From positions 1-64,000 of the forward strand of contig JALOTA010000001.1 in NCBI GenBank assembly GCA_025458125.1: DNA of 64,000 bases, given 5' to 3'. The notes under the pieces were generated by a model. That model was not told the origin of the DNA. It worked only from the letters and a program-made list of their open reading frames with translations, and searched no databases. Source of the DNA: Hyphomicrobium sp. (lineage in GTDB: Bacteria > Pseudomonadota > Alphaproteobacteria > Rhizobiales > Hyphomicrobiaceae). Made by a program: the position numbers and the translations under genes. Shown here one piece after another: positions 42,170 through 46,194 of the stretch; the first letter of the stretch is position 1, and the number at the start of each line of letters is the position of its first letter.

Positions 42170-42787
42170 CTAATCGATGATGATCAAATGATTGGGCAGT
42201 TCGTTGGGATCGCGCGATCCGGGAGGGACGTGTTCTGCCAGCAGCACGCCGACCCGATCGACCGCTTCCACGAACCCGTCGCCGGAGCGGCCTTCGGTCA
42301 GCCGCGAGGTGAGTTTATCGACGATCGACTGCCATGTGCCTTTCGGGACGGCTTTATCGATGCCGGTGTCGGCAATGATCTCGGCGAAGCGTTCCGCCAC
42401 AGAGACGTAGATCAAGACGCCCGTGCGCCCGGCGGTCGAGTGAAGGTTCTGAACCAAGAACTGTTCGACTGCGCGGCGATGGGCACGGTCGCGCTTCACA
42501 CTCGATGGCACGAGCGCATATCGGATCCGGCGCGGCAGGGTCAGCATCAGCACCGCGAGGAAGACGCCAAGCTGCAGTAGATAGATCCATTGCACCGGCC
42601 ACCACGTGAAATAAATGAACGGCCACGGCACGATCAGCGCAATCAGCGAAGCCCAGAGAAATGGAACGTGGAGATAACTGGCGCTCTCAGCGGTGAGAAC
42701 GGTAACGATTTCCCCGGACGTTCTCCTTTCGGCGTTTTCGATCGCTTCCGCGATCCTTTGCCTATCTTCATCCGAGATGAAGGCCAT
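42170..42787 (-). CDS. TPM-domain membrane protein (DUF5130/YgcG-like)
   Basis: MAFISDEDRQRIAEAIENAERRTSGEIVTVLTAESASY...TGVLIYVSVAERFAEIIADTGIDKAV; ORF open to 43045 but that overlaps the upstream TPM gene. Confidence 0.82.
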   Translation of the reverse strand: MAFISDEDRQRIAEAIENAERRTSGEIVTVLTAESASYLHVPFLWASLIALIVPWPFIYFTWWPVQWIYLLQLGVFLAVLMLTLPRRIRYALVPSSVKRDRAHRRAVEQFLVQNLHSTAGRTGVLIYVSVAERFAEIIADTGIDKAVPKGTWQSIVDKLTSRLTEGRSGDGFVEAVDRVGVLLAEHVPPGSRDPNELPNHLIIID

Positions 42788-42804
42788 CACCGTACTCCCT
42801 TCCA

Positions 42805-43590
42805 TCACCAACTGCCGGATGCACCGCCGCCGCCGAACGATCCTCCGCCGCCCGACCAGCCACCTCCGGAGCCACCGCTCCAGTTGCCCGAGCCACCTGG
42901 CAGGATGATGATACCGTCGTTGCCGAAGCGCCGGCTGCGTCTGCGACGGGCGGATGGCGGCAACTGACGGGCCTGCTGGTTCTGCTGGTAGATCGAATAG
43001 GCCACAATGGCGATCCAGAGCACGATGATCACGATTGCCAGCCAATCGGTTTCAGGCGCCTGATGCATTCCACGGGCGCGCTGCTTGACGGCTTCCGCAT
43101 CGCCCAGCAGGACATCGTTGATATCGCGCACGCCGGCCCGGATTCCATCCGCGAAATCTCCCCGCCTGAAGCCCGGCAAGATCGCATTTTCAATAATGAT
43201 GCGGCTCATTGCGTCAGTGAGAAGCGGCTCAAGTCTTCTACCGACCTCAATGCGGACCTTGCGCTCGTTGGGGGCAACGATCAGCAGAACGCCGTTGTCC
43301 TTGCCGGCCTGCCCGATGCCCCATTGACGACCCAACCTGACGCCGAAGTCCTCGATCGGAAATCCCTGCAAAGACTTCAGAGTGACCACGACCAACTGGT
43401 CGGAGGACTTTTCTTCGAGCGATTGAAGCGCCGCCGTCAATTCCGCTTCATCCGCCGGTGTCAGAAGGTTCGCTTCATCGACAATCCGGCCGGTCAGTGC
43501 TGGGAACACGGGGTCGGCGGCCTCAGCGACACGAAAGTCGCTGACGAGCATCGCAAAAACGAGTGCCAGCACTGCCAGAAGCGCGCGCAA
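42805..43590 (-). CDS. TPM-domain protein (YgcG family) with Gly-rich C-terminus
   Basis: Signal peptide, FPALTGRIVDEANLLTPADEAELTAALQSLEEKSSDQLVVVTLKSLQG; C-terminal GGSGGGWSGGGGSFGGGGASGSW. Confidence 0.92.
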   Translation of the reverse strand: MRALLAVLALVFAMLVSDFRVAEAADPVFPALTGRIVDEANLLTPADEAELTAALQSLEEKSSDQLVVVTLKSLQGFPIEDFGVRLGRQWGIGQAGKDNGVLLIVAPNERKVRIEVGRRLEPLLTDAMSRIIIENAILPGFRRGDFADGIRAGVRDINDVLLGDAEAVKQRARGMHQAPETDWLAIVIIVLWIAIVAYSIYQQNQQARQLPPSARRRRSRRFGNDGIIILPGGSGNWSGGSGGGWSGGGGSFGGGGASGSW

Positions 43591-43665: not shown

Positions 43666-44289
43666 TTACTTACCCGTGCCGAAGTCGACCCTGGGGGCCT
43701 TCTGGTCTTCTGCCGGGATGTCGAAGGTCGCCATCTCCGTCTTGTCGGGATAGACGAACGCGCGCCACCAGCGGCCGGGGATCGTCGTGATCTCGGTATT
43801 GTACTGGCGCACGGCCTGTATGTAGTCGCTGCGCGCGATGCGGATCCGGTTCTCGATGCCTTCGAGCTGGCTCTGAAGCGCCAAGAAGTTCTGACCGGAT
43901 TTTATGTCGGGATAGCGCTCGACGACGGCCAGCAGCCGGCCGAGTGCGCCGCCGAGCTGAGTTTGGGCATCCTGGAAGTTTTTCATGGCTTCCGGATTGG
44001 TCAGGATATCAGCAGGGACCTGGACGCTGGTAGCCTTCGCACGGGCTTCCACGACCTCGGTCAGAACGCTGCGTTCCTGCTCGGCAAAGCCTTTCACCGT
44101 CTCGACCAGATTGGGGACCAGATCGGCGCGGGATTTATATGTGTTCAGGACCTCCGACCAGGCGGCCTTGGCGTTCTGTTCGAACGTGGGGATGTTGTTG
44201 ACGCCACAACCAGCCAGCGGAAGCGTTATGGCGAATATGTAGCCCAGAGCCAGCCAACGGCTGGGCCGCGCGATCGAAGAAACGCTCAT
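43666..44289 (-). CDS. LemA family lipoprotein-like protein
   Basis: ITLPLAGCGVNNIPTFEQNAKAAWSEVLNTYKSRADLVPNLVETVKGFAEQERSVLTEVVEARAKA. Confidence 0.94.
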   Translation of the reverse strand: MSVSSIARPSRWLALGYIFAITLPLAGCGVNNIPTFEQNAKAAWSEVLNTYKSRADLVPNLVETVKGFAEQERSVLTEVVEARAKATSVQVPADILTNPEAMKNFQDAQTQLGGALGRLLAVVERYPDIKSGQNFLALQSQLEGIENRIRIARSDYIQAVRQYNTEITTIPGRWWRAFVYPDKTEMATFDIPAEDQKAPRVDFGTGK

Positions 44290-44443
44290 GGCACAAAGCC
44301 TCTCTGTGTAATGCAGATTACTTCCTCTTAGCCGCCGGCCGCCACAAAGCAAGGCCCAAGCGAGAGTTAACTCGGCGGCCGCCGCTTTACCTTGATTGCG
44401 AGCGGAACTTCGGGAGGGCGTGGCCCTGCTCTAGCCTACGGCA

Positions 44444-45202
44444 ATGTTTCACGTGGAGTGGCGCGAGATGGCGGGCGGCGGATTCCGGGCGACGGCGATA
44501 GCGTCTGCTTTCGCGGCAGCTGTTTCAATGGGCGGACCTGCGTCGGCCTGGGACGACTGCCGCGGCGACGCCGTGGCGTGCTACGAGCGGGTTCGCCTGC
44601 CCGACGTCTATGAAACCGTCGAGCGGCCGGTTGTCGTGAGGCCAGCGACGGAGCGCGTGGTGCATCTTCCGCCGGTCATCGGCACGCAAGTGCATCGCGA
44701 GGTGGTGCTGCCGGGACGCGTGCATAGCGTGCCGGTCGCGCCCGTTTACGGCACGTTCGTGCGCCGGGAGATGATCGAACCAGGAACGGTGGCCTACCGG
44801 ATGACGCCACCTGTCGTGGAGCGCGTCGAGGAGACCGTCGTCGTGCGGCCCGGCCGGTCGCGGTGGATCTACAAACGCGACCGGTACGGCCGCGAGATCA
44901 AATGTCTGGTAAGGACACAGCCGGTGACCCGCATCGTAGCTCGTGACGTATTGGTCGATCCGGGGCGGCGGGTCGCCGTGTTCACGCCGCCGGTCTATGC
45001 GGACGTTCCTCGGCCGGTCCTGCTCCGGCCCGCCGGTGTGCAGAACTTTTATGAACCTCCGGTGACGCGCTTCGTTGCGCGGCCGGTCATCCTGAGGCCG
45101 GCTGAAACCCGTGTGATCGTCGAGCCGCCCGTCTATCGAATGACGCGGAGCACAGTGCGCGTTCGTTCCGGCGGCACGGCATGGCAGCCGATCAACCGAT
45201 AG
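44444..45202 (+). CDS. Secreted repeat protein of unknown function (eight ~23-residue repeats)
   Basis: Signal-peptide-like N-terminus ending ..GGPASA|WDD; tandem units such as YETVERPVVVRPATERVVHLPPV, IGTQVHREVVLPGRVHSVPVAPV, YGTFVRREMIEPGTVAYRMTPPV, YADVPRPVLLRPAGVQNFYEPPV, TRFVARPVILRPAETRVIVEPPV. Confidence 0.85.
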   Translation: MFHVEWREMAGGGFRATAIASAFAAAVSMGGPASAWDDCRGDAVACYERVRLPDVYETVERPVVVRPATERVVHLPPVIGTQVHREVVLPGRVHSVPVAPVYGTFVRREMIEPGTVAYRMTPPVVERVEETVVVRPGRSRWIYKRDRYGREIKCLVRTQPVTRIVARDVLVDPGRRVAVFTPPVYADVPRPVLLRPAGVQNFYEPPVTRFVARPVILRPAETRVIVEPPVYRMTRSTVRVRSGGTAWQPINR

Positions 45203-45336: not shown

Positions 45337-46194
45337 GTGATGCCGCGCAATACTATTGCGGTGATGAATACCAAGGGTGGTGTCGGTAAATCGACGCTCG
45401 TGCTGGCGCTTGCCGAGACATTGTCCTGCTATCACGGCAAGAACGTTCTGGTGATCGATAGCGATGCGCAGGCCAGCGTATCGAGCATGCTGACGTCGGT
45501 CGGAAACTTGCACGGCATGCAAACGGAGGGCCTGACGCTCGTCGACTATCTGGTTGGCCGGGTGCTGCATGGCGGCACGCCGGACTGGTCTCGCGTGGTG
45601 ATCCGCGACGTCGGCGACGTCGATGATGCGCGGACCGTTTTCCTCGTACCCAGCGATATGCAGCTCACTCTCTTCGAACGGGAGGTGTCGAAGGAGCAAT
45701 TGCATGGCCGGTTGAGGGCCGCGATTTCTCAGCTTCTGCAGGAAGTACGCAGCGTTTTCGACGTCGTCCTCATCGATTGCCCGCCGGGACTTTCGGTGTT
45801 GACGGAAAGCTGGCTGCGCGAGGCGGATTTCCACATTTCACCGACCAAGGCCGATTACGTCTCAGTCTGCGGGCTTGATGTTTTCAGGCGGTTCAAGGCG
45901 CTCAACCCGGAAATGGGGTTTGCGGAGAACCTTGGTGTGATCGTCAACATGTACGACGTGACCTCCGCCATGGAAGCCGAGTACTTCAATTGGCTTATGG
46001 AGAACCCCGAGAACAAATGCTTTTCCGGCGTGGTTCCCCGCGCCCAATCGCTTCAGGATGCGGCCCGTTTCCGCACCCAGGACCGGTCATACTTCGCAAA
46101 ATATCCCGGCCACGTCGGAGCGGCCGTGCGCGCACTGACCGATGAACTGCTGCAACGCATGGCCGAACAGCAAAGCGCTGCGACAGCGGCGTAA
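45337..46194 (+). CDS. ParA/MinD-family ATPase (orphan)
   Basis: VMNTKGGVGKSTLVLALAETL deviant Walker A, VLVIDSDAQASVSSML, VVLIDCPPGLSVLTESWLREADF. Confidence 0.92.
   Translation: MMPRNTIAVMNTKGGVGKSTLVLALAETLSCYHGKNVLVIDSDAQASVSSMLTSVGNLHGMQTEGLTLVDYLVGRVLHGGTPDWSRVVIRDVGDVDDARTVFLVPSDMQLTLFEREVSKEQLHGRLRAAISQLLQEVRSVFDVVLIDCPPGLSVLTESWLREADFHISPTKADYVSVCGLDVFRRFKALNPEMGFAENLGVIVNMYDVTSAMEAEYFNWLMENPENKCFSGVVPRAQSLQDAARFRTQDRSYFAKYPGHVGAAVRALTDELLQRMAEQQSAATAA

Follow-up and report, generated by a model that had tools for sequence, protein, structure and literature searches.

The arms of SMC and Rad50-type proteins are antiparallel coiled coils made of helical heptads, with both termini at the base and a central tip. 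In the charge-zipper hairpins TatA and TisB, both of them membrane helices, two segments are held to each other by complementary charges arranged as a ladder. A tandem-repeat protein normally lengthens by gaining a unit at any place. Anchor proteins with an OmpA-like (PF00691) or PG_binding_1 (PF01471) domain form a further point of comparison, given that a repeat domain related to the one described here is found N-terminal to these domains, in some cases together with a lipobox. The protein of this locus comes from a 64,000-nucleotide stretch of Hyphomicrobium sp. DNA, the whole of which is called the window below; it has no Pfam match, and so neither of the two anchor domains, and consists of the repeat domain only, which no library model covers. 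The explanation that best fits its family as a whole, to which we give a probability of roughly 0.75, is that it is exported and forms a very long two-stranded antiparallel beta-hairpin.

Coding Sequence and Locus

The translation of the open reading frame at 44444-45202 (forward strand) agrees with its description in the first-pass annotation, and residues are numbered here from that frame. The true start is probably not the codon at 44444 but the ATG at 44468, residue 9, which is favored by a GGAG nine bases upstream, by the starts of the orthologues L002-L009 at the equivalent codon, and by an in-frame TAG just 5' of that codon in two of them, L002 and L004. This start leaves a Sec-type signal, MAGGGFRATAIASAFAAAVSMGGPASA, read by eye, which supports the earlier proposal that the protein is exported. 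A lipobox is absent from the window protein (...GGPASA-WDDC, with no L-x-G/A-C, also by eye), and its computed pI of 10.6 marks it as basic. The sequence TGTTTCACGTGGAG at 44445-44458 resembles half a parS site and is conserved 5' of the likely start, being found also in L002 and L003 (near 2239), with TGTTTGACGTGGAG as its counterpart in L004; it includes the Shine-Dalgarno GGAG, and the next gene is ParA-like.

Orthologues in the genus and in several genera of its taxonomic family are placed between LemA-TPM-TPM and the ParA-like gene (table 1). The LemA gene adjoins the repeat gene in L070-L073, L076, L078, and L150, and the ParA/MipZ-like gene does so in L070-L073 and L075-L078; the gene of L078, which encodes 14+14 units, occupies the same syntenic position as the 4+4 gene of the window. 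Judged from sequence, the conserved neighbors LemA and TPM point to no mechanism, and an Rfam search of the locus gave no match.

Table 1. Features of the Repeat Gene and Its Neighborhood (Window Coordinates)
Feature	Position	Strand	Basis
Likely true coding sequence, 244 aa	44468..45202	+	GGAG at 44455-44458; orthologue starts; upstream TAG
Signal peptide, residues 9-35	44468..44548	+	Basic n-region, hydrophobic stretch, A-S-A end; by eye
Cysteine pair C39, C46	44558..44581	+	Comparison with relatives
Arm A: units 1-4, residues 56-141, to conserved Trp141	44609..44866	+	Unit parsing
Central insert, predicted tip beta-hairpin Trp141-Val156, conserved Cys154, turn about Y148-G149	44864..44911	+	AF2 strands 103-110 and 116-123 (mature numbering); covariation register i+j=56-58
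Arm B: units 5-8, residues 162-252	44927..45199	+	Unit parsing
Glu130, position 7 of unit 4	44831..44833	+	One clear salt-bridge partner here, with Arg167 (predicted)
Arg167, position 7 of unit 5	44942..44944	+	Partner of Glu130 (predicted)
LemA-family gene, divergent neighbor, conserved synteny	43666..44352	-	PF04011 E=1.5e-48
ParA/MipZ-like ATPase gene, downstream, conserved synteny	45337..46194	+	AAA_31 E=1.5e-28
Pair of TPM-domain genes, side by side and next to LemA; conserved along with the repeat gene within the family	42170-43590	-	

Repeat Units and the Central Insert

Residues 56-252 can be cut into units of 23, 23, 23, 37, 23, 23, 23, and 22 aa, which recovers the eight consecutive units read from residue 56 onward in the first-pass annotation, with the 14-aa insert in unit 4; a looped unit model likewise finds eight units, spaced by 23, 23, 23, 37, 23, 23, and 23 residues. 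BLOSUM62 autocorrelation over the same residues is highest at lag 23 (z 8.6), next at lag 46 (z 6.4), and third at lag 60 (z 4.9), which equals 23+37, whereas 2000 shuffles gave z values of at most 4.8 at any lag; at period 23 the self-similarity is above that of every shuffle. Together with the all-beta AF2 model described below, these cuts bear out the view of a beta-rich protein made almost entirely of 23-aa repeats. The 14-aa insertion had been rightly noticed, and it is not an incidental feature: this conserved Trp...Cys insert (14 aa in the window protein, about 20 in relatives of the PG_binding types) is the center of the domain and its putative tip, and parts the repeats into two arms, which in the window protein have equal unit numbers, 4+4.

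An Unnamed and Widespread Family

Searches of Pfam, NCBIfam, and PDB sequences gave no match over the repeat domain, in keeping, for the first two, with the initial impression that no named family is involved. Scans of viral collections gave no useful relative, a plasmid collection gave one partial Methylobacterium match that carries no annotation, and no paper or experiment on the family was found in the open-access literature, which was queried with repeat motif strings as well. Measured against these libraries and papers, this looks like an unnamed, widespread family. A tblastn comparison of the window protein with L021, a Saprospiraceae record, gave E=4e-7 over residues 46-251, and profile A1, which was built without the PG_binding types, matches those types at E down to 3e-38; by its end-to-end sequence homology to relatives outside the genus, the window protein belongs to an unnamed family of 23-aa repeats in mirrored arms.

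By profile search, members occur in 67 of the 298 genomes from the window's order, in 47 of 399 from its phylum, and in 9 of 198 from the phylum to which L021 belongs. The repeat is thus not confined to the Hyphomicrobiales, the frame in which it was first considered, but occurs across the Pseudomonadota and in Bacteroidota, and its copy number, about which the annotation had asked, ranges from arms of 2+2 to arms of 14+14 units. Clean units, when pooled, read roughly [VQ]YxT[VR]TERVLV[RK]PA....VV[IV]PA. Beyond the window's order, many relatives have PG_binding_1 at their end (C-terminal PF01471 in L023, L025, L026, L030, and L031) or, in the Bacteroidota, OmpA (C-terminal PF00691 in L021), and several begin with a lipobox. 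By eye, the Bacteroidota members L099 and L100 (12+12) carry an OmpA-like domain within arm B, between units 7 and 8, and PG_binding-like sequence also at the C-terminus. In three short Bradyrhizobium-like relatives (L067-L069) the insert is missing, the units number three, and each end carries several cysteines.

Arms of Equal Length

The automatic parser assigned equal arms to 71 members, at sizes of 2+2, 3+3, 4+4, 5+5, 6+6, 7+7, 9+9, 11+11, and 14+14, among which 4+4 is the commonest, and unequal arms to 15. Two of the unequal parses (L128 and L145) are cut by contig ends, one (L091) is interrupted by a stop, and those of L049, L064, L098, L099, L100, L131, and L155-L157 are parser errors, with arms that are equal when parsed by hand (11+11 in L098, 12+12 in L099 and L100, 3+3 in L064 and L155-L157; the last unit of L131 is degenerate). 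Truly unequal arms are found in three members, L079 (10+6), L140 (12+9), and L141 (9+11), the units of which are nearly identical, as after a recent expansion. The genome of L079 (G551) encodes two family genes in tandem, 4+4 and 10+6; units of the long arm are almost identical, and the 10+6 gene is a candidate intermediate of arm expansion. Among lineages with more than eight units, chosen by hand and with arm counts that come partly from hand parsing, 8 of 11 show the symmetry (P about 8e-9 were the insert placed at random).

Both arms have also changed together within two genera, as read from their genes: g454 has two members of 7+7 and two of 9+9, plus the 9+11 member, and g29 has one of 9+9 and two of 11+11. 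In most long members the units resemble those of their own arm more (24/24 in L099, 10/10 in L138, 21/22 in L011), and the arms therefore grew separately, yet to the same count; in L078 and L146 likeness within and between arms does not differ. Whole-arm duplication as the source of the symmetry is rejected on this ground, the test being weak for L078 and L146. It is scarcely credible that equal arms were merely inherited, from a 4+4 ancestor or through duplication of a whole arm, with no structural pairing behind them: the prevalence of 4+4 would suit such an origin, but lengths from 2 to 14 have changed in step, even inside a genus, units usually resemble their own arm, and the charge pairing presented below is mirrored. 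In L050/L133 (G357), a 6+6 form, extra Cys-containing inserts follow units 3 and 9, symmetrically about the central insert.

Mirrored Charges and Covariation between the Arms

When units are counted outward from the insert, position 7 of a unit and position 7 of its mirrored counterpart carry opposite charges in 122 cases and like charges in 8, against 344 opposite and 215 like in nonmirrored pairs (odds ratio 9.5, p=9e-15); neighboring units are opposite only in about 62-64%. An open scan over every pair of positions and every relation ranks the mirrored 7-7 pair first (2.9e-23), and third comes the pair 19-17 of the adjacent half-segment, as the same register predicts. Simple p-values of this kind are inflated by sequence kinship, and the control least affected is a permutation of arm-B units within each protein, in which the observed charge value was reached in 0 of 20000 trials; this rejects per-protein composition as the cause of the pairing. 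The ladder can be read in a single chain in L078, where arm A carries KHEREKREREKTEK and arm B QEREVEEREREQRH. The window copy shows it weakly: one of its four position-7 pairs is opposite (E130-R167), R107-R190 is like, and in the other two one partner is uncharged or His.

For 53 nonredundant members, mutual information across the arms peaks on the neighboring antidiagonals i+j = 54-58; the band i+j=56-58 reaches a score of 9.0, whereas the background does not exceed 3.4 and none of 200 re-paired controls exceeds 4.1. The band spans the whole arm and is stable to other thresholds, alphabets, and unit numbers. Homogenization of units as the cause of this covariation is rejected, since the signal is absent from antidiagonals shifted by 23 and persists when homologous positions are left out.

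These patterns bear on the one-directional solenoid or PPII rod that had been suggested at first, against which the equal arms, the charge pairing across arms, and the AF2 strand pattern all speak. Close to that idea is a compact beta-solenoid or meander built of two-strand coils, one per 23-aa unit, that would stack on their neighbors, and 23 residues with two Pro turns would indeed suit such a coil, as would the opposite charges at positions 17 and 19 within a unit; we consider it highly unlikely, given that it does not predict equal arms, that position-7 pairing is strong only in mirrored units, that covariation is cross-arm with weak antidiagonals in pooled units, and that the AF2 strands are mirrored. 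Fainter still is the case for a trimeric fiber shaft with one unit per layer, like the triple beta-spirals of adenovirus and phage: such shafts are typically built of short beta repeats with Pro and a variable copy number, but the central insert with its equal arms and the antiparallel mirrored charges would be left without a reason, and no fiber was matched in the PDB by sequence or fold.

Predicted Structure, Register, and Cysteines

For the mature window protein an AF2 model was made from two sequences only, with pairing read from DSSP boundaries; the model is of modest quality (pLDDT 71.5, pTM 0.31). It is all-beta, and its strand boundaries are mirrored around residue 113 with sums of 225-226, both for the outer strands (20-31/195-206, 34-54/172-192, 57-63/163-169) and for the inner ones (66-75/150-160, 89-100/126-136, 103-110/116-123). 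The antiparallel register given by these boundaries is the same as that from covariation; in it, the Pro-Ala motifs of two facing units come to lie across from one another, and the tip is centered on the Tyr-Gly turn. Since the period, 23, is odd, the ribbon can be continuous only with a bulge or kink in each unit. A model of one arm alone was unusable (pLDDT 35). Foldseek searches with the AF2 model gave no significant match; among the weak ones (E at least 0.17, TM about 0.1) are several pore proteins whose stems are long hairpins.

For the most part the cysteines are consistent with both ends meeting. C46, which precedes a Tyr, is the N-cap cysteine present in nearly all relatives, and by spacing the N-cap Cys faces the C-terminal Cys of the PG_binding and OmpA types either exactly or with an offset of one residue at most; in some lineages that have neither domain (L046, L063, L065) the offset between these two cysteines is about 4-5 residues. 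Where the C-terminal Cys is lacking, as in the window protein, a further Cys (here C39) usually precedes the N-cap. The insert Cys is missing only where the N-cap and C-terminal Cys are both kept.

Equal arms, charge pairing, and covariation would fit equally well an antiparallel homodimer, in which each chain is a straight rod, arm A of one pairs with arm B of the other about a two-fold axis at the insert, and disulfides join N-cap to C-terminal Cys between chains and insert Cys to insert Cys. This arrangement would also use up the odd number of cysteines, three, found in many members. We nevertheless think it unlikely, because in the AF2 prediction the insert forms a local hairpin (pLDDT about 83) and the strands are mirrored within one chain, and because the insert is short and varies in length, as expected of a hairpin loop.

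Discussion

In the proposed hairpin, units 1-4 would form one arm and units 5-8 the other, with the Trp...Cys insert as the tip and the N- and C-termini together at the base. Unit k counted from the tip would pair with unit k of the opposite arm, position 7 to 7 and 18 to 18, so that the two Pro-Ala kinks (13/14 and 22/23) would face each other across the arms, and at the level of the family the mirrored position-7 residues would form a ladder of opposite charges. Length would be altered by rungs, one unit being gained or lost in each arm, which would keep the counts matched. The requirement that an added unit be matched on the other arm would account for the equal arms, the compensated changes within genera, and the mirrored charge swaps.

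The fold, a very long two-stranded hairpin whose tip is the insert and whose base holds both termini, is in our judgment very probably right, whereas a role as an envelope spike stands at about even odds. We infer the actual fold, the monomeric state of the hairpin, the disulfide at its base, and the spike role alike. The family is placed in the envelope by its export signal and by the lipoboxes and peptidoglycan-binding domains of relatives; where PG_binding_1, OmpA, or a lipobox is present, a peptidoglycan or membrane anchor would lie at the base, from which the hairpin would project. If the chain is a hairpin, both termini, and with them the anchor, would be at the base and the tip would project, as in a spike rather than a spacer. 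In the clade of the window organism there is no anchor, and a rod of the periplasm or surface, either free or anchored in another way, is the probable form of the protein.

On balance, we lean toward regarding the family as a new architectural class of giant beta-hairpins, with arms of matching numbers of 23-residue units and a mirrored charge ladder, a reading that takes in growth rung by rung and use as envelope spikes in Pseudomonadota and Bacteroidota. Such hairpins would have 2 to 14 rungs, and a straight ribbon of 14 rungs would measure at most about 100 nm. Both a fold and a rule of repeat evolution would then be legible from sequence alone. The result would be a simple rod, open to testing and presumably tunable in length, and a structural handle on many envelope proteins that are nameless by domain over most of their length.

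The long two-stranded hairpins of the pore proteins lysenin, aerolysin, and protective antigen resemble the proposed fold, and pore proteins appear among the weak Foldseek matches; their stems have no repeats, however, and the family has no pore-forming domain, so that they are not members of it. As in TatA and TisB, complementary charges would join two segments, although here the charges would lie between beta strands of an exported protein. Arms of matched length, a base that holds both termini, a central tip, and a length set by repeated units would be shared with the SMC/Rad50-type arms; the likeness is one of analogy only, as the family would build its arms from beta strands in 23-residue units, is exported, and has no sequence relation to them.
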